Shown here in pieces: positions 2,601 to 55,437 of a DNA stretch of 64,000 nt. Source of the DNA: a virus. The stretch lies in the IMG/VR virus record IMGVR_UViG_3300034062_002410, positions 1 to 64,000 of that record; one strand, written 5' to 3'. Position 1 is the first letter of the stretch; every line of letters begins with the position of its first letter. The notes beneath the pieces are model-generated. The model was not told the DNA's origin. It saw nothing but the letters and a program-made list of their open reading frames with translations, and ran no database searches. The position numbers were made by a program, and so were the translations under genes.

Positions 2601-2612
2601 AATTTTTACAAA

Positions 2613-2915
2613 ATGAACTCTTTATTTTTACAAGTACCTCAAGAGGTAAGCTACTTAACAAATTATGGCATTTTAGGTGTATTTGCTATAATTATGATTG
2701 GCATTATTTACTTTATGGGCAAGCAGTTTTTTGTGCTTCATAAAAAAAATGAAACAAGGTTAAAAGAAATAGAAGACCAACTATTAAAATATGTTACAGA
2801 AGACAGAGCTACACTTATGGAAACAGTTAGTTCTAACAATCACGTTATAGAAAACAATACAGCACTAATGAAAAAGTTACTTGCATTAGTTGAAAGATTA
2901 GAAAAGAATAATTAA
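2613..2915 (+). CDS. Holin-like small membrane protein
   Basis: 100 residues with one clear transmembrane helix (about residues 16-37, ILGVFAIIMIGIIYFMGKQF). A charged cytoplasmic region follows, predicted to be a helical coil (ETRLKEIEDQLLKYVTEDRA and on to the end). This layout, one N-terminal helix plus a basic/acidic helical tail, matches BhlA/UviB-type phage holins. Its place directly after the lysin-like gene and before a terminator supports a role in letting the lysin reach peptidoglycan. A phage membrane scaffold of another kind is possible. Confidence 0.65.
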   Translation: MNSLFLQVPQEVSYLTNYGILGVFAIIMIGIIYFMGKQFFVLHKKNETRLKEIEDQLLKYVTEDRATLMETVSSNNHVIENNTALMKKLLALVERLEKNN

Positions 2916-2943
2916 GATTAAATTGAAACTCTCAATAATTTTT

Positions 2944-2976
2944 AAGATATTTGTTACTTAAACAAATATCTTTTCT
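2944..2976 (+). terminator. Rho-independent terminator after lysis cassette
   Basis: A perfect 12-bp inverted repeat (2944-2955 with 2961-2972) with a 5-base loop is followed by a T-rich stretch. It ends the appendage/lysis transcript. The next ATG is only a few bases downstream, so the following gene must be read through or use a promoter inside or upstream of this hairpin. Confidence 0.8.
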
Positions 2977-2979
2977 TTT

Positions 2980-3705
2980 ATGAGCAAGAATGTAATAGAT
3001 ACTATTAGTGATTCATTTTCTAAACTTTTTTTTCAAGAAGATAAACACATATATACAGTAAATGAAAAAGTACTTCCTTCAGTTTCTGCTTTGGTTAAAT
3101 CTCATTGTGAAGCTTTTGATGAGTTGTATTGGGCTGAAAAAGAACAACAAAAAGGTAAAGAGAGTCTTCAACAAATCCTTGAGAGGTGGGAAACAAAAAG
3201 AAATGTTGCAGCAACCAATGGCACTTCAGTACATGTATATGCAGAGAAATGGTGGCAAAGCAAAAACTCCATACCCCAAAATAATCAACAAAAAGCGGTA
3301 AAAGATTTTTTAGAAAATCTAACAGAATCAGGAAGATATACTTTAGTAAGTACTGAGTTACAAATGTATTCTGAAAAATATAAATATGCAGGTACTTGTG
3401 ATTTATTGATGTGGGATAATTTAAATGATACTGCTGTTATACTTGATTATAAAACAAATGAAAACTTAGATAAGCAATATGGATTTTTATTAGAACCATT
3501 TTCTTATAGTGCTAATACATCATTTAATAAATATCAGATTCAATTAAGTTATTATCAATTAATTTTAGAAGAGATAGATATAGAAGTTAAAGAAAGGTTT
3601 ATAGTATGGTTAAAACATGATGGAACTTATGAAGTAAGACCATGTTTTGATTTCACAAATGTTTTAAAAGAATATTTAAATACAAATATCAATGAAAGTT
3701 GTTGA
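2980..3705 (+). CDS. PD-(D/E)XK nuclease superfamily protein (Cas4/RecB-like)
   Basis: 241 residues. The nuclease core is visible in order: GTSVH...E at 81-89, E126 in the strand LVSTELQMYS, AGTCDLLMW with D141, VILDYKTN with D156 and K158 (the D-x-K core), and YQIQLSYYQ around 186-192. This is the classical RecB/Cas4-like arrangement for a Mg2+-dependent DNA nuclease. It lies just after the lysis terminator and overlaps the next tail gene by 14 bases, so it is co-translated with virion genes. Nucleases of this kind are recurrent beside crAss-like structural genes; a role in DNA processing for packaging or in destroying host DNA is inference. Confidence 0.8.
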   Translation: MSKNVIDTISDSFSKLFFQEDKHIYTVNEKVLPSVSALVKSHCEAFDELYWAEKEQQKGKESLQQILERWETKRNVAATNGTSVHVYAEKWWQSKNSIPQNNQQKAVKDFLENLTESGRYTLVSTELQMYSEKYKYAGTCDLLMWDNLNDTAVILDYKTNENLDKQYGFLLEPFSYSANTSFNKYQIQLSYYQLILEEIDIEVKERFIVWLKHDGTYEVRPCFDFTNVLKEYLNTNINESC

Positions 3706-32300: not shown

Positions 32301-35300
32301 AGATAATATTAAAACAAGAGGTAAATATAAAAGAGCTGAAAATGCTATAACTATTAGTGCTAGTCAAGCTAAAAATGCTACTGATACTGAATTAGCAAGA
32401 ACTATTCTTAAAGAGTTAATGCATTCTATTACTGATAATGAACTTGGTAAACATGTATATAGAAGCTCAGGAGATAATAAATACTATTTAAAATCAAGTG
32501 ATGCACCTAAGCATATTTCAGTACTCATTAATTTATTCAACCAAGTATCTAAAATACCTGAGTTTGAAAATGCAATAGAGTCTATTAAAAAGAAATTAGC
32601 AATAGAGGGGCAAGAGCAAGCACTTACACCAGAAGAAAATAGAATTTATTATGGTGCCTATGATGTATATGAGTTTGTTGAAATGATGATGACTCAACCT
32701 GAGTTTCAACAAGAGATGGCTAAGATTAAAACTGGTAATGGTAAATCAGTATTAGACTTATTTAAAAACTTCTTAAATACTTTATTTAAAAATTTAGGAA
32801 TACAATTTGAAACAGGTACTGTTGCTTCAGAAGCTATTGAAAATATATTAATCCTTGTTGATGAAAAAGGTAGACTTAAACAACAACCTACTCAAACTCA
32901 ACTTATTGCAAGTACTCAAACTGAATCTAATTTATTTTCAAAAGATGAAATAGATGCTATAAAAGGAAATTATTTAAATGCTGATGATTTAAGTATTGAG
33001 CAATTAAAAACTGTAGGTTCACCTTTAAGTTTAAAATTAGCAAAATTAAAAGAAGATATAAAATCTGCTTCACCATTTAATAAAGCAGATATGAAATTAA
33101 AAGCAATGGATTTTTTAATTAATAATGAAGAAAAATTAATTAAAGAATTACAAATCTTTATACAACAAACTCCTGAAGTTAAACCTACTACAACATCTAG
33201 TTTACCTGGACCAGAAACTAAAATTAATATTTATGCAGGTACAAGAGAAAATGCTGAGTTAAGTAATTTTGCTATTAGACCTTTTACTATAGATTATGCA
33301 AGAATAGGAGAATATGGCTTAGGTAAAATAAAATTTCAATCGGTAGAACAAGCTTTTCAATATATTAAATTTGAAGATTTACCTTATACTGAAGAAAATG
33401 TAAAAACTGCTAATGAAATTCTTAAAACTGTTGATGGAGCAAAATTAAGACAACTAGGTAAACAGTTTAAAGGATTAAATAAAAGTTCTTGGGACAATAT
33501 TTCATCTCCTATGATGAAACAATTAATTCAAAGGTCTTTTGAACAAAATCCTGATGCTCTTCAAAAACTTCTTGCTACAGGTAATGCTACTCTTACTCAT
33601 AAAAGTCCTTATAAAGATGACAAATGGACTACAGAGTTTCCTAAACTACTTATGGAAGTAAGAGAAGAACTTAAAGGTCAACAACCTACTACAACTACTC
33701 AACCTAGTACTCAAGAAATACAGATGCCTAAACCTACAGGTGTTTTTACAGAAAGATTAAATGAAATTAGAAAAATATATAGCGGTAATAAATCTTATAT
33801 AAACACTAATGTTAGTGGTGCAGAAGCTTGGGAACAAATAAATGCACAGCAAGGAAATGTTAAACCAGAAGATATTTATAATATTAAAGATGAAATAGGA
33901 GGTAATTTGTTTGAATATTTTAATAGAGCATATCAATATATAACAGGAAATAAATTAGTACAAGATAAAAATTTTGTAATACCAATAAATCAATCTTCTA
34001 AATCTACTACAACTACTCAACCTATTGTTACTCAAGAAGTTAGTAAATCTGATTTAGAAAAATTAAAACAAACTCCTGAAGGTAAAAAAATAGAAAAAGA
34101 AAGACAAGAAGAATTAAAACCTTATTTAGTAACATCTATTGATGATAAGATTAATATTATAAATGAAAATCTTGGAAAAATGGGATTTGCAGGCTTAGCT
34201 AATTCGCCATCCATTATTTTTACATTTAATGAAAGAGAACCTTCTACAAGTTTTTTACAAAAACCTATAACAAAAGAAGGAAGTAATTATCGAATAATTA
34301 CAAGTAGATATAATGTACTTGTAGATAAAGATTTTAATATTATTAGTACAACAAATGTTGATACAGGAAAAACTTATAAATATAAAGAATCTGAAATAGG
34401 AAATTCAATAGTTGAAATAGGAAGAGTTCCTGATAATTTTAAAGTATCTCAATTAATAGAGCAACTATTTAATGAGAATACTGCTTATAAACAAAACAAA
34501 CAAGAAGAAATTAATAAAAAATATGATGAAGAATTAATTGCTGAATATAGAAAACAAGAAGTCAAACCTACACCTACTGTATCTAATTCTATTAAGAATG
34601 ATTTGTTGAATATCCTTGAAGATATAAAAAGAGAAACTGATGATGAAAGTTTAAATGATAACTTAGAGTTTCCTGTTGTAAATGCAAGTGAGTTTTCAGG
34701 TTACCCTAATATTCAAAAATATCTTAATACTGAATATGGTATAGAACAAAGAGAATATGAATTTTTTAAGTTACATAAAGATGTAGTAGAAGATTTGTTA
34801 TCAAGTATGAAAGAAGTTAATCCTACTAACTTACTTGAAAAACTTAAATCTGTAACTGATACTAATGATACAGGAGTTGACTCTAATATTAAACCTATTA
34901 TTACTTCTGATACTAAAAAGGACCAAGAATTAATTAAAAAAGCTAATGAACAAATAAAGAATACTAAGTATGAATTATTTCCTGGTGTAGGTGCTAATGT
35001 AAAACAAACAGAAGCATTAGATAAATTAACAGATTTCTTAAAAGCACCAATAGATAAATCAGAAAAAACTCAATCTACTTTTGTATTAGTAGGTAGAGGT
35101 GGTACTGGTAAAACTACTATTGTTAAAAAGATTGTAGATGAATTTCCTGGTAGTAAAGTAGTAGGTGGTGCTATATCTCATACTGCTAAAAATAATTTGC
35201 AAAAATCATTAAGAGGTAAAACAGTAAGGACTATTGCTTCATTGACAGGCATAGGAGTATTTGATGATTTAAATGATTTTAAAGATACAACATTGTCAAG

Positions 35301-37014
35301 AGCTGATATTATCATTATAGATGAATGTTCTATGATTGATACAGCTACTATGAATAGAATTTATCAATTAGCTAATCCTAATGCTAAAATTATATTCATG
35401 GGTGATAATGTACAGTTACCACCTATTGAAAAAAATACTAAAGAATCTCCTACTTTTAATGCAGCTACTAAACCAGAAAATAATGCTAAGTTAACTAAAA
35501 GAATGCGTCAAGGTGAAGATTCTCCTATTGTACCTTTATCTGATATTGTAGCAGAAAATATTGAAAGGTCTGAAAAAGAAATAGAAAGAAAAGTTATTAA
35601 AAGAAGAGATAGTAACTTTAATCCTGTAACTAATAAAGGTGTAATCTTTACAGATAACAATGCTGAACTAATGAGTAATCTTGAAAGAGATTTTAAAGCT
35701 GATGTTCAAAACACTAAGATTATAACTTACACTAATGATGAAGGTAAAACTGGTAATCCTGGTAATAAAAAAGAAATGAATGGAGTAGTAAGAAAAATAC
35801 TATGGGGTGCAGATGCTAAAAATGAATACAATGTAGGAGAAATATTAGTAGCTGATAATATTATTTATGATGCAAATATTCTTAATGGTGAATATTATGA
35901 AGTTCAAGGGATTAAACCAATAAATGATGCAGTTAGTATTACTGCTGTTGAATTAATTCCAGGAAAAGGTATAGTTACTAATCAAAAAAAGTTTCCTGGT
36001 TATTCTTTAAAAGTAAAAGTAATTTCTGAAACTGATAACTTTAATAAAATAATAACTTTAAATTTGCCTTCTGCTGATTCAAAACAAAAAATAGATGAAA
36101 TTCAAGAAGGTTTAAAAACAGCTAATAAATCATTATTTTATCAAAATAAAAAAATAATACCTGATGTTAATTATGGTTATGCTATAACTTCTCATAAAGC
36201 TCAAGGTTCTACTTTTAACAATACTTATGTAATGGAGGATAATATTATTAACTCAGGGATGAGTAATAAAGAAGCTAATCAAGCATTATATGTAGCAATG
36301 ACAAGACCAAGAAATAAATTGGTAATGTTCTCTGAATTAAAAGAAGGTGAGTTTTTAACTGAGAAGCAAAAGGAAAATATGGTTCCTACTGGTGAATCAT
36401 TACAACCTGAAGAAATAAAATTAGGAGTAGAAGAACTATTTAATTCTAATTCTGAATTATCTTCTATTGGAACTCCTCAACAATACTCTCAATACTTAAA
36501 TACTATATTTCCTGATAGTCAAGTAAAAGATATTGTTTATCATGGCACATTAAATAAGTTTGAATTTTTTGATAAGTCAAATCTTGGAATAAACACTTTT
36601 AAAGATAGACCTAAAGGATTTTATTTTACTAGAAAGAATGTAGCTGAATATCTTTATGGTACTTTTAAGCAGATATCGCAAGAAACAGGAAAAGAAGAAT
36701 TTGTAAAAGGTAATTTAATTAGTGCAGTTATTAATACTAAAGAACAATATCAATTAGTCCAAGAAAAAGATGATATTAGCGGTTATGGAGATTTTGTTGA
36801 ATATGAATCTCATGTAGTATTTGAACCAGAACAAATACATATATTAGGAAGTAAAGATGATATAAAAGGATTTAAAGAGTTTGTAGAAAAGCAATCTACT
36901 CAAGAAGTAAAAGAAAAAGTTCAAGAAACTAAAAAAAATACAGTATCTTCAGCAATTGAAAATCAAATTGAAGAACTTATCAAAAAAGGTATTATTAAAT
37001 CTAAATGTGATTAA
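17341..37014 (+). CDS. Giant virion RNA polymerase polypeptide fused to NADAR, SF1 helicase and ADP-ribosyltransferase-like modules
   Basis: 6557 residues, one uninterrupted frame. The RNA polymerase signature is at 4137-4141, DFDVD, within FRIPTSGHMSA...MIVPKNL...KGLDFDVDKENTY. This corresponds to the R-x-P-T...DFDGD region of the beta-prime double-psi barrel, whose three Asp residues bind catalytic Mg2+. Residues about 500-1450 are Lys/Glu-rich predicted coiled coil. About 5021 carries a degenerate peptidase-like KELMH. About 5292-5440 is a NADAR/YbiA domain (IYAGTRENAELSNF, FQSVEQAFQYIKF). About 5870-6345 is an SF1 helicase: Walker A GRGGTGKTT (5918), Walker B IIIDECSMID (D5994), GDNVQLPP, SHKAQGSTF and YVAMTRPRNK. 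About 6397-6520 is an ADP-ribosyltransferase-like fold (VYHGTLNKFEFF, KGFYFTRKN, HVVFEPEQIHILGS) of the type found in phage polyvalent proteins. crAss-like phages inject such polymerases. Whether this one is cleaved is unknown. Confidence 0.85.
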   Translation: MCPYPDDNSIVNQNTNPVVPLTDEQFAARYKEGSLPGQELNFPEGRFTNSGETFSEITSGSTSAFDDVYEQRMKELEKEVVKEDYDNLLTGGGKLAGQLLYNVAAMVGDFVGLVTDPGDIRLPTLGGTADFLTGLFGYKTDVGAYTDYFDPFATANEVFKAIDNYTFWGDGEDETGNMWTRDAQSLRDKSQHFFQINTSNDYFDVAANFTIPIIGSVLGAARTGQFTAAAGQIAGLSKGANAMMNSFIMTESTGLSIAQGVHNEVYREVLNKLSNGELQKLEDKAYSEAFDKAVADGYNKKDAEWLGIQATKQARTDFATANPELGKEASKNAGKGADVALKSMAPSFALNMITGNMYTRSLYSPKNILSKPKWIQPIDVLKEIRNEVLEESGIEQIAEKAGIAYGTKGTYNFEDLKNTIVSYDALYSGIGAIIGGGGGAVFSSLPYIGDFNERKKQYDEQQEVLVKQNRIGNSAGLKDMIDNATTLTMDLGQVVRLGKEAAILEQLGMKEEANMIKDKMLSIQAHEAFKSGTTKNLIENYEKIASNPNAGPEVQLKAREAVAEIKQMGEIYEKTKDKYINDQEVYSNKINEHNLNKVERQLETEIIQKKLEADIAIKLELESGRTSLTSGEETIIDNETGNVVTQPSQLNYNVANLKVNPYVGVDKDAEVYRNFSEYVTNNVQAVRELNELEQRLGNVKQFKKDNFERYNKITSKAYQKSLRYEQKLARVFDAGEKELEELKGTNQYMPLVDAIMEKYKGKIDEQQFKSIRKYYENQNNTKKVAEDIAKEEIKKNEFAKSETEETEVTPTDETSAVKPEGSKAMLENIARKLSSGEARSIKKLTKEEQDFYMNNQSLVDKRTSELKNEIDSQSQTEITEDEELSQELQNVSNEVSSELDGILGSKEEETESKPLSNTEVKNALQTPQQILDNKIQALENEKQILENKKEEEIKNLPKQNEVLAKGLKDFNLTTFDEQVKFFEDAIERRKKEIKELQERIKKDKDIITDYALNVLYSKLSRAVDGLNTNQKNLDALLAETKINEKYDKQIETLNAQISELKSEPISKGEVKDVLGTSSSAITALEEERKQAHLEVEEMGIEGSGHRTKSAAHAYIDKMYDEKRKQLETKTSTSQESNAEAIAELKRKQQEEIDKNAQNIIVKKEQITWKDDEGKNRKVLITHYADGKRVVEFMDEDGTVTHKERIQKDREIEFAIGAFNYNTNEKLTVQKEDIVFKSTLLDKINAKYNAQITVLEGKPVSQETNVAQEIEKFINRVIPNQEKRLLNAQEIASNGKTFNEAIDNLIKKSENARNKANERLKKEAAKEGVKPLDIQERLAEYKETKEADRYDYLIEQINEVYAVETENFNNSTQEAIDYEQGQLDIANKRLSTLESQPTEVKPDIILSGLAGGFKGVSKNSFDVRNSTEVMNNVNSGKSFSEIVEYKGKKYVVVGLRLDTARFSTTVGRDNYSFAVAELNENTPNNIVEILETSAKENFKNIYSDFNNNDVIRPITEQNKELSALKSKPTVEQKQTKAVKPLNFVISGIGGIGRGGFRVWKSQNYNVEAGGNEAQDNRSKQEVSELTNPTDKTRLIGRFYSVDQGDKVTYYANTNEVAFDNEFKRLTDAVNRGASVQVSVTVNKSDNVNEADIQKALLEKLTQVVEVSVDKNTFKANPQADFSGISLNEINPTKQQEQVTLSQKEQEILNSFKDNKASKPLLNRKFAANKSEIESLLAKGIIKEDGNNYVIAGREAQEVTLTVQKTKAEQVADNLLAKQFTRNAEGTYNLQINLKALSPEEKADIEDAVKVIKERIKNNQLDGWEINKVSNPLFEVVTITKPNLTSNQPMEEGDVSYQPDEIPTLTKEQEEKIKDLIESYVNTMEIDNNKFPTFEELVKSYIRTVGKEKAEKHLKLLGTGWELNGYGTISDYNAILRKLFGKREDIALGISAMSEELSQSVAAPEEVEVKQDELIKKEEIKDSAEPIDVTPDKQVVYSTETDIVSDTSPKLGYSVFDFSISQKVRGKDGKIIVTTDTINEGLKKKQDGLVKAIKTANFENVKVGAKLTVSVNPLNELNRVKSWVIPARVEDKNSPLYGTDVLENGKVKTIKFGEWLDQKVKESGLPVEEFMETQEFWDRVPILVSDEQGDFIAQVHDIGWYTPAKFNGDIKEAKRNVNEIRKLIKEAFKRGENSVFEITNITGGKTDGLKLTELVPLKKANPQAMMGLIVKDKDGNFQTFIYENGKRKEVKVENLSVITGAEQNKTKSMMKVDIRRWGTDADGKPTYKAFYSTSPKLSASQVNTVKNIIYSKLIVANNNLSTSQNNKFGKLLNAINSTIGSDITNNESFTDLLKRFVFISPVKNVSQEYRQGLINKVNEGNISEVENTLATSYFKNINKLEPGQTTILSLAPDILVVAKNGSNGIEVKIINKNTIPVENNEIVNNQEFLQRDALLQEALQNSLLNGYAQVGNYKQPVIQVNNDFTLTTVANNYPEFVQNNVLTNLMSVNVGTNDKPVYATRLQSNIYYKPVGTAPGKSVSRKEGQTMVSDSKVTEKDKQAITNVVESTSDEAFEEAVEGVEQDGFELFGDTVEEKAEDLKEVVKQMSNESKEIVENHLEAGPNLDNISEYNEFLNQASNKVKWVNEYFNEDNTESAESLESNQPREIGEEDVEDMAINLLRINGVSSRHQSQLANYASVKLGDILSTKEINQQEVRDKVVEDITNTLNANKESLQETLAQLKSIPQYQDRPKVMELVVKYETALNKINLVLDNIDVIYKQSVAIALKDLNGKVIENDEIEVGDDPNDNDLDNQENEEDVDDELSEEEDRHLGTENYSKTSLEVNPKASITSTLRRFMRGIPDISPTTGLPKSGAMGVTTYVDFDTVYDVVQSLLADAPVDFNMMMDILEVNKNKQPWLPILINKLKESSSEVKNQFTTTMGKHALTMEFLMYSFDKEGNATFKIVNTNLSSINRKIKDEWSNNLTSSNVLIDEYGNVSRDTVDELLNEYNSWMKTPSVLSSVHQRFIKERLKLGETSFNADENNKTLNISVELAQQKTNSKITNIDGKEYLVSIGSDDVVYVTPYERNIVSKALVDYASLTPAESKEAIEKIKDWFDAFGIELTDNAIDGLFKNPKVSASQFFEQSNNFAVGSLVKWLDTTRKAFSQDKEVTITEGSKNNPLDNSAVSDLAYHQSKYSSGIVTSSFRDGKKSIYGFTAFKFITDRANEIKNKPEFRDNLRKLSFSKNSFWLQLFEDGIDLPVYNFKERFNVTHLGLTALKEFAKKLYRDNGITSLGDVDHELVKVGMHQADQGALSKPFTVFGQQISLRNITALFPTMSDKSTMTLVKTLGLNLTDKKYFDKTENGKLVPNKSIAEFIFEQTVLPEIERVINFNAKNPNGTDIKNYDKGAKMLLLMPHLNDLVIFEKDGKKITLNEAINTKNAKLQKVLSKKDVILAEVQNYVSALVEEKMKVWAANGYYTVEEKDGKTKVTNNLLDKKYMEGVVADSQLEKIELAAMDFEINQMLSNANAFMTMIGDPAIYYKADSSKSFIQQSKETFTNVGKRLALMIAPGSKLADSETEQYTQVMLEDRVAMSENISFLTEVLDNKKFDWKEYNRIKSLNTKSDDPVKAKELKDEQKKQFEEFYDKYPNSNGYFNIEGTDAQEYTTWQEHLHILEKLGRLNDATVSITPEEIREAKEMFANNTPYSQMSDKQKGILKKVLQPIKPVYTGQIFDEAQDVMRTVYIKSSSFPLIPQVTEGTELNKLKEALEALQKEGAGPNPSPYKYVRASYQSANKVGAKAKALNMYEDDGSIKDLKVEDLKASSLTLNRKDFKIQLDVPYKSFKKKEDTVSLGTQLTKILFGNGVMDATGFMYNGKPIDGVELEKEYTKAFIELVNYKTQQLYDELGIDIKTNKPIDVRATAAKLQNILKTEAINRGYSKQDVEALEVIIKEVNGEEDLTFKLPLWLAANANRFESLLNAVVNNRIVKLKFPGSSFVAGSEEGFKIQKDFKGVDKNKIVWTKNWNGKELQAAKYDADGNLQYAQVIAPSKFRKKDGTLIDLLERKNNKYVYVTETKQGFKLKEDMIDPELRNITAFRIPTSGHMSAAQVEIVGFLPNEQGDLMIVPKNLTKQKGLDFDVDKENTYSLWHETDENGKITVLKEGDKEKLLQNEIIKIHTAVLSNPDKEVQKKINNILSIDYAKEQAENIDSMISSSKDETYFTPLGSEYQKNKMFLGASGKIGIGAYSLDVTTHSLFEQAKAKGNQVSLNYTDIDEKGKTIANPFNMSFEGEGRTDGTLGNQQTIDGQRTIAQVLSELQNIATDNEKEQVMGRVNLNSYTLDVSKILAMLGFDKAKNGNSIQFTFLSQPIIREYVKEMDNVNSNVAKFNPNKESAVINKLLEKYGNKNYELGYDVDVQNTKNFTMDKMENQLRGEVDNDFQLAVLNRFLELKKLGLAVRTLQGAINTDSKGLGKSILDNSQKIESINNLLSNPVITNAGELLGNFIPIVKYEKGKRIKALSDAEYQSYINDGYVKFGDNLFLPTTVSGVFTARALVTATSLWDRHFPYNSKLFNSIFENLMPLISKSEASDAKKVEKKSMVIKEIKRFLNSYSASNTLFDNINAQAERERLFFDRPSTGKVSLATYIKELKKANSSLASNKLIERLELVANTQGEPSLIKFNNTSAGFYDENGLNNALLELMELNLNLPSFNNEPYTSRKLAQDLITYSYLEGGVQEATQFVKFIPLSYLNKMGFTFGLSNIDFDSMGAYSIFDINPDLLNTNSKFITQFVQHNPGILPKLDNYIPKIGDIKNISEVTEFNIEKMLNAIEYQGMTAAEFYDYYKMDAKQIEEFKIALANKVSNFSMPEFVALRKDGEYLLWKSAGNGNYVQVPVVQSGISEYDSNVQQITPLSSEIVTPQNPVKEQPLSPSSDESKVTNETRFGLGTDASLTDIVTNLANSTSIDEYLITLAKQLLPAINPTTSITVDNIKTRGKYKRAENAITISASQAKNATDTELARTILKELMHSITDNELGKHVYRSSGDNKYYLKSSDAPKHISVLINLFNQVSKIPEFENAIESIKKKLAIEGQEQALTPEENRIYYGAYDVYEFVEMMMTQPEFQQEMAKIKTGNGKSVLDLFKNFLNTLFKNLGIQFETGTVASEAIENILILVDEKGRLKQQPTQTQLIASTQTESNLFSKDEIDAIKGNYLNADDLSIEQLKTVGSPLSLKLAKLKEDIKSASPFNKADMKLKAMDFLINNEEKLIKELQIFIQQTPEVKPTTTSSLPGPETKINIYAGTRENAELSNFAIRPFTIDYARIGEYGLGKIKFQSVEQAFQYIKFEDLPYTEENVKTANEILKTVDGAKLRQLGKQFKGLNKSSWDNISSPMMKQLIQRSFEQNPDALQKLLATGNATLTHKSPYKDDKWTTEFPKLLMEVREELKGQQPTTTTQPSTQEIQMPKPTGVFTERLNEIRKIYSGNKSYINTNVSGAEAWEQINAQQGNVKPEDIYNIKDEIGGNLFEYFNRAYQYITGNKLVQDKNFVIPINQSSKSTTTTQPIVTQEVSKSDLEKLKQTPEGKKIEKERQEELKPYLVTSIDDKINIINENLGKMGFAGLANSPSIIFTFNEREPSTSFLQKPITKEGSNYRIITSRYNVLVDKDFNIISTTNVDTGKTYKYKESEIGNSIVEIGRVPDNFKVSQLIEQLFNENTAYKQNKQEEINKKYDEELIAEYRKQEVKPTPTVSNSIKNDLLNILEDIKRETDDESLNDNLEFPVVNASEFSGYPNIQKYLNTEYGIEQREYEFFKLHKDVVEDLLSSMKEVNPTNLLEKLKSVTDTNDTGVDSNIKPIITSDTKKDQELIKKANEQIKNTKYELFPGVGANVKQTEALDKLTDFLKAPIDKSEKTQSTFVLVGRGGTGKTTIVKKIVDEFPGSKVVGGAISHTAKNNLQKSLRGKTVRTIASLTGIGVFDDLNDFKDTTLSRADIIIIDECSMIDTATMNRIYQLANPNAKIIFMGDNVQLPPIEKNTKESPTFNAATKPENNAKLTKRMRQGEDSPIVPLSDIVAENIERSEKEIERKVIKRRDSNFNPVTNKGVIFTDNNAELMSNLERDFKADVQNTKIITYTNDEGKTGNPGNKKEMNGVVRKILWGADAKNEYNVGEILVADNIIYDANILNGEYYEVQGIKPINDAVSITAVELIPGKGIVTNQKKFPGYSLKVKVISETDNFNKIITLNLPSADSKQKIDEIQEGLKTANKSLFYQNKKIIPDVNYGYAITSHKAQGSTFNNTYVMEDNIINSGMSNKEANQALYVAMTRPRNKLVMFSELKEGEFLTEKQKENMVPTGESLQPEEIKLGVEELFNSNSELSSIGTPQQYSQYLNTIFPDSQVKDIVYHGTLNKFEFFDKSNLGINTFKDRPKGFYFTRKNVAEYLYGTFKQISQETGKEEFVKGNLISAVINTKEQYQLVQEKDDISGYGDFVEYESHVVFEPEQIHILGSKDDIKGFKEFVEKQSTQEVKEKVQETKKNTVSSAIENQIEELIKKGIIKSKCD
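33686..34023 (+). repeat. Pair of identical 20-bp repeats flanking a module in the giant gene
   Basis: The same 20-base word (ctactacaactactcaacct) occurs at 33686-33705 and 34004-34023. It encodes the Thr-rich linker PTTTTQP/STTTTQP on both sides of a roughly 100-residue module downstream of the NADAR domain. A related Thr-rich linker precedes NADAR near 33184. Confidence 0.75.
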
Positions 37015-44812: not shown

Positions 44813-45676
44813 TTAAAAAATGTAACGAATTTTATTCCAAGGTATTATCTCATCATGTAGTTTTACAAAATCAGATATGTATCTATTCTTTAACTGCCAT
44901 TTATATCTAATGTTTTTAGAACCATAAGATGATACTTTATCTTCTTGTACTTCAGGATTCCATAACAATTCTTCTACTTTAGGATTATGTTCTAAATTAT
45001 ATTCATGCATACTTTTATTATGAGTTAGCATAATACATTCTGCAAGTATATCATTTTTAATTTTATCATCCACATAGTAATCAATCTTTTTAAACAAATC
45101 TTCATATAAAAATTTAGCTCCAGGAATAATTATAATAGGACTAAAATTAATATGAACATCATAACCTGCATAGTAGAAATCATTTATAGCTTCAATTCTT
45201 TCTGAAATTAATGAAGTGTTTGGTTCTAATATATCTGAAAGTTTTTGTGGCATTAGTGAAAATCTAATCCTAATCTTTTTATCAGGATTGTAATCTAACA
45301 ACTTATCATTTACATATTTAGTTGCAAATGTACCCATTATAGGTAAATCAGATTGAGTAAAGAAATCAAATATCTTTTCCCAATCGTGGTACTTAGCATG
45401 TAGTGCAAAATCTTCATTACAAGAAATATCATAAGTCCATAAATCTTCATGTGTTTGATTAGGTATTTTAACACCTAATCTTTGAGCATGATTATATACA
45501 GTCTGTAATATTTCATCAGTATTTGTAGCTATTGATATACCTTCAGGCTTATTTCTTCTCATATAACAATAACCACATTTAAATAAACAACCATGAATAA
45601 AAGAAGGAGTAATGTAATCACTACTCCTTCCTGATGGTTTTATATCTAATGCTTTTCTAACTGTTTGAGTTATCAT
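44813..45676 (-). CDS. Radical SAM protein, spore photoproduct lyase-like
   Basis: 287 residues. The motif HGCLFKCGYCYM places Cys at 30, 34 and 37 (CxxxCxxC), the ligands of the [4Fe-4S] cluster that splits S-adenosylmethionine. The opening TPSFIHGC, a later IRIRFSLMPQKLSDILEPNT and GYDVHINFSPIIIIPG follow the spore photoproduct lyase (SplB) family, which repairs a thymine dimer formed in DNA under UV or in dry spores. The length is within range for that family. In a gut phage a DNA photoproduct role is unexpected, so a related DNA or nucleotide substrate is possible. Flanked by small genes of unknown function. Confidence 0.75.
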   Translation of the reverse strand: MITQTVRKALDIKPSGRSSDYITPSFIHGCLFKCGYCYMRRNKPEGISIATNTDEILQTVYNHAQRLGVKIPNQTHEDLWTYDISCNEDFALHAKYHDWEKIFDFFTQSDLPIMGTFATKYVNDKLLDYNPDKKIRIRFSLMPQKLSDILEPNTSLISERIEAINDFYYAGYDVHINFSPIIIIPGAKFLYEDLFKKIDYYVDDKIKNDILAECIMLTHNKSMHEYNLEHNPKVEELLWNPEVQEDKVSSYGSKNIRYKWQLKNRYISDFVKLHDEIIPWNKIRYIF

Positions 45677-49101: not shown

Positions 49102-49453
49102 AAACTAATTTTAATAATGTGAAAAAATCCTCAAAAGTCATAGTTACCAATGAACTATAATCATCCCTTTTCTTTCCTGGTTTACCTTGCTTATGATGTA
49201 TAAGCACTTTAGGAAATTGTTCTGAAAGTTTAGGAAGCTTAGTATCAATGTTCTTTAAGACCTCTTCAGGTTTCATTCCTTTATGTACTCCTGCTTTAAT
49301 TTGTACAAGTAAAGGAATATTTGCTAAATCTACTCCACCATCATCTAACATTCTTGATGCATATCTGCTTGTTTGACAATCAGGGAATAATTCCTTAAAC
49401 TTTTGGGCATAAAACCTTTCAGCGTTATGCCCTTTGTTTCTATTTTGATTCAT
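49085..49453 (-). CDS. Small PD-(D/E)XK nuclease, Holliday junction resolvase-like
   Basis: 122 residues. KGHNAERFYAQKFKELF contains E12, RMLDDGGVDLANI contains D42, and LVQIKAGVHKG has Q51-x-K53 in place of the common E-x-K. This is the compact nuclease fold of archaeal-type Holliday junction resolvases and related phage enzymes. Overlaps both neighbours by 14 and 17 bases. Expected role: cleaving branched DNA before packaging. The Gln replacing Glu could alter activity but also occurs in active members of this superfamily. Confidence 0.7.
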   Translation of the reverse strand: MNQNRNKGHNAERFYAQKFKELFPDCQTSRYASRMLDDGGVDLANIPLLVQIKAGVHKGMKPEEVLKNIDTKLPKLSEQFPKVLIHHKQGKPGKKRDDYSSLVTMTFEDFFTLLKLVYDNKK

Positions 49454-49928
49454 TAATAACTAGTTGTAATTTATCCTGTGATACAATGTAGGTGTCAACA
49501 TACTTACTCAAAGATAAGAGATAATTCATAATTTTAGAATACTTTTTATCAGCTACATATTTCTTATCAATATATAATGCTAAACAAGAATTTCTATAAT
49601 ACTGATACTCTCTTAACTTGATAAAATATTGCTTCTTGTGTTTATTAACTACTTGAGCTACTATATTTAATGTTAAAGAATCAACTATAATGCCTTTAGT
49701 AATAAACAAATCTTCTTTTGGTAAATAAGCTACTTTAGGAGTAGTTGTAAAAAATGCTGTTAATACTTTATCAGTAGATGTTTTATTAGCTTTTACTAAA
49801 TAAATAGTTGTGCCATTATTTCCATTAATGTTATTTGCACTACTAAAAAACTTATCTATATAAATTGTACTACCACTTACATAAGTATCATATCTTGGAA
49901 ATATAACATTGAAATCATCGTGCTTCAT
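49440..49928 (-). CDS. Unknown protein encoded between E1-like and resolvase-like genes
   Basis: 162 residues, beta-rich at the N-terminus (YDTYVSGSTIYIDKFF, TTIYLVKANKTSTD) and helical at the end. No family or motif recognised. It overlaps both the E1-like gene and the resolvase-like gene by 14 bases, so it is made in step with them. Because it is embedded directly after the Ubl-conjugation enzymes it might be a cofactor or substrate of that system; only the position supports this. Confidence 0.5.
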   Translation of the reverse strand: MKHDDFNVIFPRYDTYVSGSTIYIDKFFSSANNINGNNGTTIYLVKANKTSTDKVLTAFFTTTPKVAYLPKEDLFITKGIIVDSLTLNIVAQVVNKHKKQYFIKLREYQYYRNSCLALYIDKKYVADKKYSKIMNYLLSLSKYVDTYIVSQDKLQLVINESK

Positions 49929-50673
49929 AATTTTCAGTTAGTTTATTGAATGGTATAATGTAATCCCACATATAAGGAATCTTGAATACATTATCATCCC
50001 ACTCTGTAACATTAGAAATAATGTTTGTGACAAAACCTGTAATATGAGTAGCAATCATAGCTGCACCATGAGATACTTGTTTCATTGTACACATTAAATC
50101 TTCAACATCTGAATCTGCAAATAAATGATTATCAATATAATCCATATGAAACTGTTGATTATCACCAGGAATACAATAAATTCTCATTTGTTCCATCAAT
50201 AATCTACCATCTACAAACCAAATTTTATCTGGAGTTACAGAAGAATATTCATTGTTACAAACAGCAAGAAACTTTTCAAATAATAATTTTCTAGCTTCCA
50301 TATTGTCAAATGCAGAAATAATTATGATTGGAGATTCTCTACTTGCATAACCTCCTCTGGTATTAATCAAATTATATAGATTAGTTTCTTGAACAAGTTT
50401 CTCATTTCTATATGTAAATGAATAATCATTATCGTTAAATAAAGCAATAGTATTATGCAAAGCAATAACTTTAGATTCACCTATATCCTGATGTAAAAAC
50501 ATTTGTCCACCAAGATTATGTTCTTCTACTAAGTCATAATCTACACTTAATACATTAAAACCTGCTCTTGTTAAAAAGAAACTTGTCCAAGAACCTATAC
50601 CACCTGCACCAAATACTAATATTCTTGCTGGCTTGTTATACCACAATGCATCTTTGAACCTATCTTTACTCAT
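49915..50673 (-). CDS. E1/ThiF-like adenylyltransferase of a ubiquitin-like system
   Basis: 252 residues, a single ThiF/E1 domain. GAGGIGSW (22-29) is the nucleotide-binding Gly-rich loop. DYDLVEEHNLGGQ (D45, D47, N53, Q57) is the E1 motif contacting ATP, although the usual Arg before Gln is Gly here. ISAFDNMEARKLL carries D123, the Mg2+ ligand. C195 in DLMCTMKQ sits where the catalytic Cys of ThiF-like E1s is often found. E1s adenylate the C-terminal Gly of a Ubl and pass it to a Cys. The gene follows the JAMM gene with one base between and overlaps the next by 14. PRTRC-type ThiF proteins are the nearest family I can name. Confidence 0.85.
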   Translation of the reverse strand: MSKDRFKDALWYNKPARILVFGAGGIGSWTSFFLTRAGFNVLSVDYDLVEEHNLGGQMFLHQDIGESKVIALHNTIALFNDNDYSFTYRNEKLVQETNLYNLINTRGGYASRESPIIIISAFDNMEARKLLFEKFLAVCNNEYSSVTPDKIWFVDGRLLMEQMRIYCIPGDNQQFHMDYIDNHLFADSDVEDLMCTMKQVSHGAAMIATHITGFVTNIISNVTEWDDNVFKIPYMWDYIIPFNKLTENYEAR

Positions 50674-50674
50674 A

Positions 50675-51739
50675 TTACAATGTGTTTTCTTCTGTTAACA
50701 ATTCTATCAATTCACTCAACACAACAAATTCATCAGCACTAAATATTAACTCCTCAATAAACTCTTCCCAAGTATCATCTAATTCAGATTTAAGAATAAA
50801 TGGTTTTCCATAATACTCACCCATCCATTTCTTAAAATTAGATTTTATAGAAGCAGCATAATCATGTAGATTAAAATCTTGAAATTGAGTTACTGAATTT
50901 TCTAAATCTTCTAATGCTTGTTCTAAATTATCATTTGGAACATCCATACCTAATCTTAGAATTTTACAAAACAATGGTTCTGATGCATTAAACAAACTAA
51001 CTCCTTCAGAAGGCATTGCACTTGTATCTTGCCACCAAGTAGCTTCATCAAATAACTCTGTCTGAGTATATTTAGAATTAGATTTAGGTTTATAAAATTC
51101 AATCTTTGGAACAGGTTTAGGCTTGTTAATAGCTGTAAACTGATTTAAGAATGTTTCATCTACATTCCAAGTAGTTTCAGGTAGAACTATTTTACAATTA
51201 TAATTACCTACATATTCATCTTCTTCTGTTGATGATAATGTAGTTATAGAATTATCAATATTTTGAAACTCAAATGTTGTAGGTGTAACTGTTTTAATTC
51301 TAAATGCAATCTTTGCAGAAAACTCATGTCTATTATTTACAATAATACTTAGATAAGGCTTAATGTGTTCAGAGTTTTCTACAACTTCATCTGTATCTGT
51401 ACCTGAAAAGAATGTTTTCATGTTGTGATGTGAATGAAGATGTCCTATCTTTAAATGAAAATAATCTTTTTCCATCATATAAGATAATACTCTTTGGTCA
51501 AAAGAATACTCAGTAAATCCTGCACTACCTTTATCTAATGGAATCATATCCTCCACTTTAATATAGACAGTTTCAGGTTTTGCAAGGTCACCTTCAATTG
51601 AATAAAATGTACAACCACTCCATTCTACTTCATTGATGTAAGAACATAAGTATTGTATCTTTTCCCAAACTAAATGGGATAATTTTACAGGAATTATGTA
51701 CTCAAAATCATACAGTTTCAACTTTTTTATATTTTTCAT
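50675..51739 (-). CDS. JAB/JAMM-domain isopeptidase-like protein with C-terminal extension
   Basis: 354 residues. The zinc isopeptidase signature is complete: E39 in NEVEWSG, then H102-S-H104 followed after seven residues by S112-x-x-D115 (HSHHNMKTFFSGTD). JAMM proteins remove or process ubiquitin-like proteins after a C-terminal Gly-Gly. The domain takes the first 150 residues; the remaining 200 are an unassigned, partly acidic helical extension (about 265-354) that might bind partners. The gene overlaps the E2-like gene by 32 bases and is one base from the E1-like gene, so the three are co-expressed. A role in trimming the Ubl tail or in deconjugation is inferred from context. Confidence 0.85.
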   Translation of the reverse strand: MKNIKKLKLYDFEYIIPVKLSHLVWEKIQYLCSYINEVEWSGCTFYSIEGDLAKPETVYIKVEDMIPLDKGSAGFTEYSFDQRVLSYMMEKDYFHLKIGHLHSHHNMKTFFSGTDTDEVVENSEHIKPYLSIIVNNRHEFSAKIAFRIKTVTPTTFEFQNIDNSITTLSSTEEDEYVGNYNCKIVLPETTWNVDETFLNQFTAINKPKPVPKIEFYKPKSNSKYTQTELFDEATWWQDTSAMPSEGVSLFNASEPLFCKILRLGMDVPNDNLEQALEDLENSVTQFQDFNLHDYAASIKSNFKKWMGEYYGKPFILKSELDDTWEEFIEELIFSADEFVVLSELIELLTEENTL

Positions 51740-52931
51740 TTGCTAAATAATTTAGAATTTTATTATAATAATGATTTTCATTCAACTTGTTATAAATATA
51801 ACAAAGTGCTGGTTTAGTAATTTTAACTTCAAAGTTATCAGTTAATGATGCATTAGTTAATATTACAGGTCTTCTAGTTTTTTTAAATAAAACATACTTA
51901 CCTTCAATTTTATATTTCAAATCTACTGAACCAAGTTTGTTTACTACTTCTCCATTAGAATAGATAATAAAACTAAATGGATAACTTGAAAAAGAAAAAC
52001 CAGCTGAAATAAGTAACCCAACTAAAATCTTTTCAAAATAATCATCTTTAAATACTAATTCATTATTAATTAAGAAAATAGCATTCTCTTTAACTAGTCC
52101 ATCTATTAATAAATAAAGATACTTATTGTCAAAACTCCTAGTAATGTACTTAGTCAAATTAAACAATTCAATTACTGATGATTTAACTACTGTATTATCT
52201 GTAAGATATGACATTTTGATATATGGACCACCCTCTAATGACTCATACTGCAAATATGCTTTAAGATTGAGAAGAAATAAGTTAAATACATTTGGTATTT
52301 CTTCTTTATTCTTATTCAATATTTGTTCATATAACATCATCATTGACATAGTAATATCAGTACCTGAACCTAAACAAAAATTAGTAAAACCAACTGTAGC
52401 AGAAGAAGGTAAATGAGAATGACTATAATTCTTTTCAAGTTGTAATTCTGTAAAACTACCTCTCCTACCTAATAATCCTTTGTTATGTATATCACCTTGT
52501 TGAGTAATATGAAATTGTACATACATATCTGTTATGTGAATAGACCTATTAAGTTTATTAGTAACTTTTAATTCAGGATAATGTATTACAACAGTTAATC
52601 TAGGATAATAATGCATTATTTCAAAGTATAAATCACCATTATATGTAGTATTTATATATTCAAAATAGTTAAATGGAATTTTAGCATTAGTTTGATGATT
52701 TAAAATTCCAAAAGTATCAGATAATGCATGTACATTACAATCATAAGATAAATATATATCATAATCATATCCTTGTTTGTCTAACTCAGTTTTAATGATA
52801 TTGTAAAACCAAAATATGCTTGATAAATTTTTATTTAATGTTTTGTAATACAGCAAGTTATTGATTCTGTTTAAATCTACATTACGTTTTTGATTATTTT
52901 GATTATAAAACAATGATGCTATTCCTAACAT
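51708..52931 (-). CDS. E2-like (ubiquitin-conjugating fold) protein
   Basis: 407 residues. The central part (about 105-195) has an E2-like strand meander (YYPRLTVVIHYPELKVTN, then RSIHITDMYVQF), a YSHSHLP motif with H171 and H173, and FTNFCLGSGTDI where C186 is the candidate catalytic Cys. This Y-x-H-x-H...F-C-L-G pattern is the one I know from prokaryotic E2-like proteins found next to JAB and ThiF genes. N- and C-terminal regions are helical and unassigned. A terminator lies just upstream, so expression probably depends on read-through. The E2 call rests on motif spacing plus operon context; structure prediction would be needed to confirm it. Confidence 0.65.
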   Translation of the reverse strand: MLGIASLFYNQNNQKRNVDLNRINNLLYYKTLNKNLSSIFWFYNIIKTELDKQGYDYDIYLSYDCNVHALSDTFGILNHQTNAKIPFNYFEYINTTYNGDLYFEIMHYYPRLTVVIHYPELKVTNKLNRSIHITDMYVQFHITQQGDIHNKGLLGRRGSFTELQLEKNYSHSHLPSSATVGFTNFCLGSGTDITMSMMMLYEQILNKNKEEIPNVFNLFLLNLKAYLQYESLEGGPYIKMSYLTDNTVVKSSVIELFNLTKYITRSFDNKYLYLLIDGLVKENAIFLINNELVFKDDYFEKILVGLLISAGFSFSSYPFSFIIYSNGEVVNKLGSVDLKYKIEGKYVLFKKTRRPVILTNASLTDNFEVKITKPALCYIYNKLNENHYYNKILNYLANEKYKKVETV

Positions 52932-52946
52932 ATAGATATAAATTAA

Positions 52947-52975
52947 AAAGAGCCTGATTGTTAGTCAGGCTCTTT
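52947..52975 (-). terminator. Internal terminator between Ubl gene and E2-like gene
   Basis: A perfect 11-bp stem (52947-52957 with 52965-52975) with a 7-base loop; on the - strand it is followed by a T run. Only 15 bases separate it from the E2-like start, leaving little room for another promoter. It would make the Ubl transcript more abundant than that of the enzymes downstream. Confidence 0.85.
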
Positions 52976-52989
52976 AGTTAGAAAATAAT

Positions 52990-53637
52990 TTAAATCTTTC
53001 CTTTCATCTTACTAATCCACTCATTTTCTGCATCTGTAAGTAAATCTGACTTTGTATTCATAGACTCACAAATAGTAGCAGCAGATACATGACCATTAAT
53101 AAGGTCAAATGCAAGTTCAAAATCATCTTTTCTTGCTTTATACTCATTACTAAAACGTAATGTATTTATAGCAGATTCTAAAAGGTGAGATTCATCTTCT
53201 TCATCCTCATTGTCATAATTATCTTCAACATACTCTTCTTCATAATCATCATCTTCACTTTCATTTTTCCAAGATAACAAAAGAGCTTCTAACTCATCTT
53301 TAGATTTGTTAGTGTAGTTTTTGTTACCTGCATTAAAATGCTCGTGTGCAGCTTTTTTGTCATCTTCAAATGCTTGTTTGATTTGTAGTCTTATCTCACT
53401 ATAAGATAATCCACCACTCTTAGTTTTCTTAGGAGCTAGCATTAGTACAAATTCGCCATCAGGAAGAACAGCTTCATCTAACTCTAAGTTAGAATTGTTT
53501 TTGTTCTCTACTGCTGTCATATCAGATACTGAATAACCTTTATTAGTCAATTCATTTTTAAGTTGACCCCAGTTAGTTGCATTAGAGTCTACTACTGCGA
53601 TACCTGTTGCAGTAGAATAAATTTTAATTTTTCTCAT
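52990..53637 (-). CDS. Ubiquitin-like protein with internal Gly-Gly and acidic C-terminal tail
   Basis: 215 residues. Residues 1-74 look like a beta-grasp domain: strands MRKIKIYST and GIAVVDS, helix NWGQLKNELTNKG, then SVSDMTAVE and a last pair LDEAVLPDGEFVLMLAPKK. The domain ends KTKSGG with the two Gly at exactly 75-76 (codons 53410-53415), the position they hold in ubiquitin. A 139-residue extension follows with a strongly acidic stretch (EDDDYEEEYVEDNYDNEDEE, about 127-148). E1, E2 and JAMM-like genes follow on the same strand, and the primase gene lies 12 bases upstream. Cleavage after Gly76 would expose a ubiquitin-like end. The fold call is my reading of the strand pattern, not an alignment. 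Confidence 0.7.
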   Translation of the reverse strand: MRKIKIYSTATGIAVVDSNATNWGQLKNELTNKGYSVSDMTAVENKNNSNLELDEAVLPDGEFVLMLAPKKTKSGGLSYSEIRLQIKQAFEDDKKAAHEHFNAGNKNYTNKSKDELEALLLSWKNESEDDDYEEEYVEDNYDNEDEEDESHLLESAINTLRFSNEYKARKDDFELAFDLINGHVSAATICESMNTKSDLLTDAENEWISKMKGKI

Positions 53638-53649
53638 TGTCTTAATAGT

Positions 53650-54624
53650 TTAAAATAAAAAATTGATTAATTCTTGTTTTTTTCCTGCTTTAATAATGTC
53701 TGCAGGATCTTTTTCATCAAATGGTAATACTACACTTATAGCTTTAGAACTATAATGATTGTTAATATATTTTACTACTTTGTTAGATGCAGGTATACCA
53801 GCTTTATCATTGTCAAATAATACTATTACTTGATTAAATACTGAAATATACATTGATAATATTGATATATCAGGTAACATACCTTCATTTTGAAAATATA
53901 TAGCATCTTTACCAAGATTAGTTAACACTCTCCAATCTTTATAACTCTTAGTTATATATAATGTATCACCTACAAATGGAAGATTCTTTGTACCACCAAT
54001 AGTATTTTTAGTAGTATTAGTTATCCATTTATATTCTTTAGATTTTGGCTTACATATTTTAATACCTTCACTTTTATATGAAATAGTGTAGGTAGTTTCT
54101 TGTGGAAAAGGTGTAAATATGTTTCCATTAACTTTAAACCATTTGGTAGCAAATATATTATCTGCTATAAGTTGGGAACTTGTTATCTCATATTGTGACC
54201 AATATGTTTTATGATAATCATCAAATGGCTTAGGACAAAACTCTAACAATTTAGATGAAGATGTGGTAGATACAATGGATTGTGATTGTGATTTATAATC
54301 TACATATTCTGATTTACCTTTAAATGAATTGTTATCCATTATATAAGTTATAGCATCTTTTAATGATAAGTTATAATACTCTTGTATTATACCAATAGCA
54401 TCTAAATTTACTACACCATAAGTACTTGCAAAATCAGTAAAATATAATTTACCATTTCTCCATTGTATCCAACATCCAGGGCTATCATCAATTCTAAAAG
54501 GACTTTTTATATATACATTAGTTTCAAATTGACCAAAAACATGATTAAATATTTGTTCTTGGTTAATGTATTTAAATACATCTTCTATTGATGAAAATGT
54601 AAAATCATCTTGATAGCCATACAT
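53650..54624 (-). CDS. DNA primase, DnaG-type with TOPRIM domain
   Basis: 324 residues. The N-terminal half (IKSPFRIDDSPGCWIQWRNG, LYFTDFASTYGVVNLDAIG) is the zinc-ribbon-like/N-terminal region of phage DnaG primases, although the zinc Cys ligands are missing. The C-terminal half has TOPRIM elements: LYITKSYKDWRVL where Lys and Ser stand at the usual Glu position, VIVLFDNDKAGIPAS (the D-x-D Mg2+ site), and EKDPADIIKAG. It makes RNA primers for the DnaB-like helicase/PolB fork encoded upstream. Adjacent to the Ubl gene by 12 bases. The N-terminus MYGYQDD resembles that of the next upstream gene. Confidence 0.8.
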   Translation of the reverse strand: MYGYQDDFTFSSIEDVFKYINQEQIFNHVFGQFETNVYIKSPFRIDDSPGCWIQWRNGKLYFTDFASTYGVVNLDAIGIIQEYYNLSLKDAITYIMDNNSFKGKSEYVDYKSQSQSIVSTTSSSKLLEFCPKPFDDYHKTYWSQYEITSSQLIADNIFATKWFKVNGNIFTPFPQETTYTISYKSEGIKICKPKSKEYKWITNTTKNTIGGTKNLPFVGDTLYITKSYKDWRVLTNLGKDAIYFQNEGMLPDISILSMYISVFNQVIVLFDNDKAGIPASNKVVKYINNHYSSKAISVVLPFDEKDPADIIKAGKKQELINFLF

Positions 54625-54651: not shown

Positions 54652-55437
54652 CTAGTCCCAAGAACTTTGAATTGGTTCTGTTCCATCAGTAGCTTTAGCA
54701 AAATTAGAAGTCATAAACCAATCAGTTCTTGTTACTGGGTGAAGTACAAAGTTACCATTATCTTCTTTTACATAAATCAAACCTTTATTAGAATCTACTG
54801 TTATAGTAGCATCTCCAATACTAAGATTAAATTTCTTAGCTCCACCATTAGTTACAGGATAATCTGTACCTCTAAATGTAAAAGTCATAGCTTTACCATC
54901 AATAGTGATAGGCTCATAGTTACCTTCTTCAGCAAATACAAATACTTTACCTTGTTTTACATTAGATGGGATTTCTACATACTTAGTACCATTGTCATTC
55001 TTAGAAGTCCATTGATATTGACAAAATACATCTAAGTTAATAGAACTAAAATCAGTAGGTAATAACTTAGCAAGAGCATTACAGTAAGATTTAAAGTTAG
55101 ATACTCCCAATAATCCTTGTTTTAAATCTTCTTCAGTTATAAAACATTTCATTAATTGAGAAATCTTAGCATTAAATTCATTAAATGCAGCTCTCATTTC
55201 ATTACTGCGAGGGTCAGTAATTTTGTTGCCATTTTTATCAATAGCTTGAGTTACAGGAAATTGACGCCAGTTTTTAACTGCTCCTCCTGAAAATTCAAAT
55301 GCAATATCAATACATTCCTGAGCAGCACCATCTTTGCCACCATTAGGATTAAACTCAAACTTCGTCATCTTAACTCCTTGGTTAAGACCAAAATTCATTG
55401 AACTTGATGATTTCTCATCATTTGCATATCCATACAT
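54652..55437 (-). CDS. Possible single-stranded-DNA-binding or replication accessory protein
   Basis: 261 residues. The opening (MNFGLNQGVKMTKFEFNP, then AQECIDIAFEFSGGAVKNWR) is a strand-rich domain, and the C-terminal part has another beta region (GKVFVFAEEGNYEPITIDGK). The protein ends in an SSWD tail, slightly like the acidic tails of SSBs. The neighbours are primase, an HTH protein and a Sak4-like ATPase, so a DNA-binding role is plausible, but I see no definite OB-fold motif. Ends in TAG, showing the standard code is used. Confidence 0.5.
   Translation of the reverse strand: MYGYANDEKSSSSMNFGLNQGVKMTKFEFNPNGGKDGAAQECIDIAFEFSGGAVKNWRQFPVTQAIDKNGNKITDPRSNEMRAAFNEFNAKISQLMKCFITEEDLKQGLLGVSNFKSYCNALAKLLPTDFSSINLDVFCQYQWTSKNDNGTKYVEIPSNVKQGKVFVFAEEGNYEPITIDGKAMTFTFRGTDYPVTNGGAKKFNLSIGDATITVDSNKGLIYVKEDNGNFVLHPVTRTDWFMTSNFAKATDGTEPIQSSWD

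Follow-up and report, generated by a model that had tools for sequence, protein, structure and literature searches.

Does a bacteriophage carry a ubiquitin-like conjugation system of its own within its replication operon? This question is raised by positions 1 to 64,000 of the IMG/VR virus record IMGVR_UViG_3300034062_002410 (hereafter the window, a 64,000-nucleotide stretch of an 85,292-bp virus record), where four neighbouring genes appear to encode a ubiquitin-like protein (Ubl), a 407-aa putative E2, a JAMM metalloprotease and an E1-like adenylating enzyme. An earlier note, made from the sequence of the window, described them as an apparently complete conjugation module, and we found all four open reading frames (ORFs) on the minus strand at the positions it gave. 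They form a real, conserved phage cassette, and we put the probability that it serves ubiquitin-like modification (conjugation) at about 60%. The Ubl, JAMM and E1 components are well supported; to call the whole set apparently complete is too strong, because the E2 identity of the 407-aa protein is not established. The products are encoded as follows.

53413..53637, minus strand: Ubl domain, residues 1-75 of a 215-aa protein, ending ...KKTKSG, with a predicted mature C-terminus at Gly75
52993..53412, minus strand: helical tail at the C-terminus of the same 215-aa protein, residues 76-215, a predicted JAMM cleavage product
51708..52931, minus strand: putative E2-like carrier, 407 aa, with H171-S-H173 at 52421-52413, C186 at 52376-52374 and E230-S231..G234-x-P236
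50675..51739, minus strand: JAMM metalloprotease, 354 aa, with E39, H102, H104, S112 and D115 plus an uncharacterized C-terminal domain
49915..50673, minus strand: E1-like adenylating enzyme, 252 aa, with C195 at 50091-50089 in a CTMKQ motif

Conservation of the gene cassette

We compared 115 loci drawn from IMG/VR scans and annotated phages, of which 104 extend over the module region, the remaining 11 being truncated by contig ends. The set includes overlapping copies of the same contigs, and about 80 loci are distinct by sequence; residue conservation was counted on non-redundant relatives (71 for the Ubl, 75-77 for the 407-aa protein, about 70 for JAMM and 64-66 for E1). Profiles were compared with hhalign, folds were searched with Foldseek against PDB and BFVD, and families were searched in Pfam and NCBIfam.

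The order Ubl, 407-aa protein, JAMM, E1 was kept on one strand in 104/104 loci covering the region. This conservation is far beyond chance, and it bears out the co-occurrence in relatives on which the earlier note had made its proposal depend. Median pairwise identities at this constant gene order are only 20-43% (Ubl 27%, 407-aa protein 20%, JAMM 28%, E1 43%), which implies that the module is old. A primase lies immediately upstream of the Ubl gene in 100 of 101 loci; downstream, the window has a RusA-like resolvase and an exonuclease VIII-like gene, and a resolvase or exonuclease follows in 80 of 80 loci. The placement between primase and recombination nucleases noticed in the window is thus shared by its relatives. 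Among Steigviridae the module is present in, for example, the cultured phages crAss001 (Ubl precursor gp79, JAMM gp77) and DAC15, and it also occurs in FpV-type phages of Flavobacterium. Most deposited records annotate its genes as "hypothetical", "metalloprotease domain" or "thiamine biosynthesis protein". In the open literature, with subscription journals and preprints outside coverage, we found no paper joining crAss-like phages with a ThiF or ubiquitin-like system. A host origin was considered and rejected: when 396 Bacteroidota genomes were searched with the phage-type E1 profile at 1e-15, only 2 matches came up, both generic.

The window phage had been called crAss-like. This description fits its replication block, which is common to the window phage and the crAss-like Steigviridae, but not its giant structural protein, by which the nearest relatives are the Flavobacterium psychrophilum phages FpV4 and Fpv1-3 (38% identity). 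A single ORF at 17341-37014 on the plus strand of the window encodes a giant virion-type protein of 6557 aa.

The probable Ubl precursor and its enzymes

The 215-aa protein was proposed to be ubiquitin-like; we find two parts, a beta-grasp domain at residues 1-75, as judged from structure prediction and fold search, and a separate, mostly helical tail at residues 76-215. The AlphaFold2 (AF2) model of the precursor, built from 63 sequences, has a predicted local distance difference test score (pLDDT) of 90 overall and about 95 in the fold (residues 1-70), with elements b2-8 b12-18 a23-32 b40-44 b63-69 (b-b-a-b-b) and the helical tail from residue 79. Foldseek matched this model to ubiquitin, SUMO, NEDD8, MoaD and the B. 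fragilis Ubl (BfUbb) with probability 1.00 and template modelling (TM, target) scores of 0.6-0.73. The best E-value, 2.5e-3, is modest, which is probably due to dilution of the query by the tail.

The strongest conservation of the whole protein falls directly after the beta-grasp fold, on a K-S-G stretch between fold and tail where AF2 confidence is lower: K73 is kept in 64/71 relatives, S74 in 68/71 and the C-terminal glycine of the domain, G75, in 71/71. Column entropy is 0.00 at G75 but already 2.72 at residue 76. Beyond this point, 67 of the 71 carry a variable tail of 64-252 aa. In the other four, which are mutually divergent (23-44% Ubl identity), the Ubl frame stops 1-2 residues past G75. 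One of them (locus L119) ends ..TKSGE-stop and has no tail gene. Two more, ending ..VKSGK-stop (L129) and ..VKSGI-stop (L126), encode the tail as a separate small ORF starting at an overlapping TAATG. The fourth (L031, ..IKSGKF-stop) has a homing-endonuclease gene of HNH/NUMOD type inserted exactly at the junction between Ubl domain and tail (1698-3030), after which the tail continues as its own ORF.

Every Ubl carries at least one residue after G75, and a JAMM protein is encoded in every case. Since no Ubl ends at G75 itself, processing would always be required; given that a protease is always needed and JAMM is always encoded, a JAMM cut after G75 is the simplest inference. These results strongly suggest that the Ubl is synthesized as a precursor trimmed by JAMM, and that Gly75 would be made available for activation through this processing.

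Assignment of the E1 and JAMM proteins is well supported by sequence matches and invariant catalytic residues. As the earlier note recognized, the E1 is ThiF-like: it matches Pfam ThiF (PF00899, E=4e-16), its best NCBIfam family is ThiF (7.6e-20), and GxGGIGS, D45, D47, N53, G56, Q57, K68, D123, R128 and C195, the last within C-[ST]-x-K-Q, are invariant or nearly so. The closest PDB match of its profile is UBA5, the E1 of UFM1 (3e-16). UFM1 ends in a single exposed glycine once its short tail is removed. However, the UFM1 system is distant, with no relation to a UFC1-like protein or UFSP protease found, and the UBA5 similarity may reflect only a minimal E1 architecture. The E...HxH-x7-SxxD signature read in the JAMM protein is borne out in its relatives, all of which keep E39, H102, H104, S112 and D115, with S103 kept in 67 of 70. 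Prok-JAB was matched by 24 of 25 family members (best 1.1e-6), the window protein alone falling below the curated cut-off, and the JAMM profile recovered COP9 subunit 5 from the PDB (E=6e-4).

The 407-aa protein is less readily placed. Its HSH (171-173) and FCLG (C186) motifs, from which an E2-like function had been proposed, are present and conserved: HSH followed by C-x-G occurs in all family members, consistent with a predicted cysteine carrier. S172, H173, C186 and G188 are kept in 75/75 sequences, S231 and G234 in 77/77, and H171 and N125 were invariant among the first 27. The AF2 model (pLDDT 87.5, predicted TM score 0.80) has the order a-b-b-b-b-[HSH..C]-a-a, which fits an E2 with insertions. 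The putative carrier role rests on the invariant histidine and cysteine, this secondary-structure order and the gene context. We keep "E2" as a putative label because the profile and Foldseek searches for E2 were negative or uninformative; the protein may be an E2 that has diverged strongly, or else some other cysteine enzyme that accepts the Ubl.

Gene junctions and neighbouring genes

Three further features bear on how the module may be expressed and on its extent.

53650..54624, minus strand: DNA primase (toprim), with DnaG/toprim and PHROG primase matches, directly upstream of the Ubl gene
52947..52975, minus strand: terminator-like hairpin, an 11-pair stem followed by a T-run, between the Ubl and enzyme genes
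49440..49928, minus strand: fifth conserved gene, X, 162 aa, whose start lies inside the 3' end of the E1 gene

Joint expression had been read from genes that overlap or abut. This holds for the tightly coupled enzyme genes, where the 407-aa gene and JAMM overlap by 32 bp and JAMM and E1 are 1 bp apart, but the Ubl gene is separated from the 407-aa gene by a 58-bp gap with the hairpin. A terminator-like hairpin follows the Ubl gene in 64 of 78 relatives, its sequences differing; such hairpins occur in 0-2 of 75-79 relatives at the other four junctions and after 32 of 725 other ORFs. A second hairpin in the window (55521-55499), before an SSB-like gene, is shared by only 11 of 52 relatives. Because of the predicted hairpin after Ubl, the modifier would be more abundant than its enzymes. 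From this arrangement we infer that the SSB-like protein, primase and Ubl genes make up one transcript segment, the primase probably sharing its transcript with the Ubl, and that the enzymes would be expressed by read-through or from a start of their own.

The four genes form a unit, as proposed, but the fifth had been overlooked. In 75 of 80 distinct loci the gene directly after E1 belongs to the gene X family; in the window its start overlaps E1 by 14 bp, so that these two genes are tightly coupled as well. The family falls into two sequence groups, which hhalign links (probability 88%, E=3e-6), and Pfam and PDB searches with gene X gave no match.

The SSB-like protein itself is encoded upstream of the primase (54652-55437, minus strand), and its C-terminal tip is conserved with a tryptophan (QSSWD, KSTW, GDNW), in the manner of the partner-recruiting tips of SSB proteins. 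In three relatives only, the end of the Ubl tail (SNSWD, DPWG) resembles this tip. Elsewhere in the window, a 287-aa protein (44813-45676, minus strand) with a cysteine cluster, CLFKCGYCYM, resembles SPL/radical-SAM photolyase-type proteins.

Competing explanations and known systems

If the cassette does conjugate, the Ubl would be made in excess as a precursor, on the transcript segment of the SSB-like protein and primase, as the hairpin suggests. JAMM would cut the precursor after K-S-G75, freeing the C-terminal glycine and releasing the tail, a step to which conservation and the natural gene splits point, and may later deconjugate. The invariant E1 motifs are consistent with an enzyme that would adenylate Gly75 and then take the Ubl on Cys195; the 407-aa protein, as putative E2, would receive it on Cys186 and pass it to target lysines. 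Gene X may, as a guess, help to choose the targets. We see slightly less than even chances that these are host or host-defence proteins encountered early in infection; phage replication proteins are somewhat less probable.

Several points weigh against conjugation. No E2 was among the 50 best PDB matches in a Foldseek search with the 407-aa model, and all matches in BFVD were phage homologues or viral proteins without a name. None of 67 members of the 407-aa family matched an E2 family in Pfam or NCBIfam, its hhalign comparison with PRTRC-B was not significant, and a PDB profile search gave no E2 assignment either, so that the E2 identity is unproven and the weakest link of the claim. The Ubl C-terminus is a single glycine, not GG. 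As a pattern match, the hairpin is a putative terminator, the phage record of 85 kb is perhaps incomplete, and neither a ligase nor a substrate has been identified, the conjugation reading resting on sequence and predicted structure.

The carrier role of the 407-aa protein is also where an alternative enters, in which the Ubl is trimmed by JAMM, adenylated by E1 and thiocarboxylated as a sulfur carrier, the 407-aa protein then modifying a nucleotide, tRNA or metabolite, as with ThiS, MoaD or QbsE. ThiF as the best NCBIfam match of E1, the existence of JAB-associated sulfur-carrier operons (Iyer et al. 2006, PMC1779556) and a 407-aa protein that is not demonstrably an E2 all favour such a role. 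However, the 407-aa protein matched no sulfur-handling enzyme and the Ubl fold search ranked ubiquitin and SUMO above MoaD. A sulfur-carrier role is also less likely because neither a rhodanese nor a NifS/IscS-type cysteine desulfurase was found in the phage record, although absences there are weak since the record may be incomplete, and a host enzyme could serve. Overall we consider this role unlikely. Still more improbable is a two-part protein made without conjugation, in which JAMM would separate a ubiquitin-fold adaptor from a working helical tail, for example a replication accessory factor, with E1 and the 407-aa protein acting elsewhere. The tail is folded in the AF2 model, and of the four phages with a shortened Ubl frame three still encode it, but the fourth, locus L119, keeps the Ubl, JAMM, E1 and 407-aa genes and has no tail, and such a role would leave unexplained the invariant G75 (71/71) and an E1 with all its ATP-site residues and catalytic cysteine.

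A further alternative concerns purpose and overlaps with the conjugation reading: the same chemistry would serve counter-defence or superinfection exclusion by disabling a host or prophage defence protein, from a swappable slot after the primase. Two Steigviridae phages without the module hold other genes at that place. In cr116_1 (locus L132, 9428-13584) the stretch from primase to uracil-DNA glycosylase is occupied by rIIB and by an rIIA gene that an annotated intron endonuclease interrupts; in cr108_1 (L133, 8277-13863) the primase is followed by an amidoligase cassette with genes for an ATP-grasp protein, a phiEco32-like COOH-NH2 ligase and two glutamine amidotransferases, possibly another peptide-modification cassette. 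The place after the primase can therefore hold alternative cassettes: one is a counter-exclusion type, and the other likewise forms peptide-like bonds. In cr113_1 (Suoliviridae) and crAss002 (Intestiviridae), neither the Ubl module nor these alternatives occur. Against a swappable slot stands the fact that only two replacements were seen, whereas every other Steigviridae or FpV-type phage seen has the module in the replication operon with its Ubl beside the primase, so that it looks core rather than accessory. We regard counter-defence as possible, with the balance leaning against it. The alternative cassettes and the placement beside the primase together fit either of two aims, the tagging of host or defence proteins, towards which we lean, or that of phage replication proteins.

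Among known systems, PRTRC, which is found on plasmids and conjugative elements, comes closest. Its gene order is the same, C-(F)-B-A-ThiF, where C is the Ubl, B the E2 and A the JAMM; the phage E1 is homologous to PRTRC ThiF (hhalign probability 99%) and the phage JAMM resembles PRTRC-A (81-87%; FFSGTD versus FFSxTD). However, scores lay far below the curated TIGR cut-offs (ThiF 34.5 of 144.75 bits, PRTRC-A 13.6 of 101.8 bits), PRTRC-B and -C gave hhalign probabilities below 1% with no TIGR03737 or TIGR03738 match listed for any member, and no TIGR03734 (ParB) match was found in the phage record. The phage module also differs in having no ParB and no E or F seen, a long folded tail on its Ubl, a place in a phage replication operon, and gene X. 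With ParB absent and B and C not homologous by profile, we rejected membership: judged from its genes, the module is PRTRC-like, not PRTRC, and the likeness drawn by the earlier note extends to gene order and not to membership. Operon type 6d of Iyer et al. 2006 appears to be the same set as PRTRC (ParB, E, C, F, B, A, ThiF) (PMC1779556). PRTRC-C itself mostly ends ..TKG, with extensions past the glycine in 3 of 6 loci with a JAMM gene versus 0 of 8 without (p=0.055; the loci are not independent). In the Bacteroidota PRTRC loci L029 and L044-L048, which have E, C, F, B and ThiF, the JAMM gene A appears to be missing, and the glycine is the last residue of PRTRC-C.

The Bil system likewise encodes Ubl, E2, JAMM and E1 functions together, and its JAMM, BilC, trims the C-terminus of its Ubl, BilA (PMC11354881). 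BilA has two Ub domains, and BilD combines two adenylation domains, one inactive and one active, with a Cys domain (PMC11354881), whereas the phage module has one Ub domain with a tail and a 252-aa E1 with one adenylation domain; these differing domain counts led us to reject Bil membership. Bil is also carried by the defended host, in contrast to a module carried by the phage. In CBASS, Cap2 conjugates through a single C-terminal glycine and the JAMM protein Cap3 cuts fusions after it (PMC10097602), but the modifier is cGAS and E1 and E2 are fused, unlike the separate E1 and putative E2 genes of the phage. A PADLOC test for Cap2/Cap3 found weak, generic E1 similarity only, and no CD-NTase or effector gene was noticed among the neighbouring window genes. 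Lambda-type TAPI/TAPK pairs a phage Ubl carrying a C-terminal domain after its glycine with predicted JAB cleavage (PMC1779556), but belongs to tail assembly, has no E1 or E2 and lies in an unrelated gene neighbourhood. A ThiF-like gene also stands beside an 892-aa protein and topoisomerases in the 229-kb Xanthomonas jumbo phage PhiXhv-15 (locus L138, 5013-5696).

Most of what is known of bacterial Ubl conjugation concerns anti-phage defence (CBASS, Bil) or plasmid operons whose role is unknown (PRTRC). The module described here is borne by phages, and in Steigviridae and FpV-type phages it is a regular component of the replication operon. If conjugation is true, the cassette would be a viral counterpart of the CBASS and Bil defences, and the virus may tag proteins in the infected bacterium. 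The fullest version, a complete virus-borne pathway with a JAMM-matured precursor, a new type of E2, a target-selecting gene X and host tagging as a viral mirror of Bil and CBASS, is a tentative proposal that we would not yet bet on. The targets of prokaryotic Ubl-E1-JAMM operons become testable in cultured phage-host pairs: because trypsin cuts after the conserved K73, a Ser-Gly remnant (+144.05 Da) would be expected on each tagged lysine, and existing proteomes of infected cells could be searched for it.

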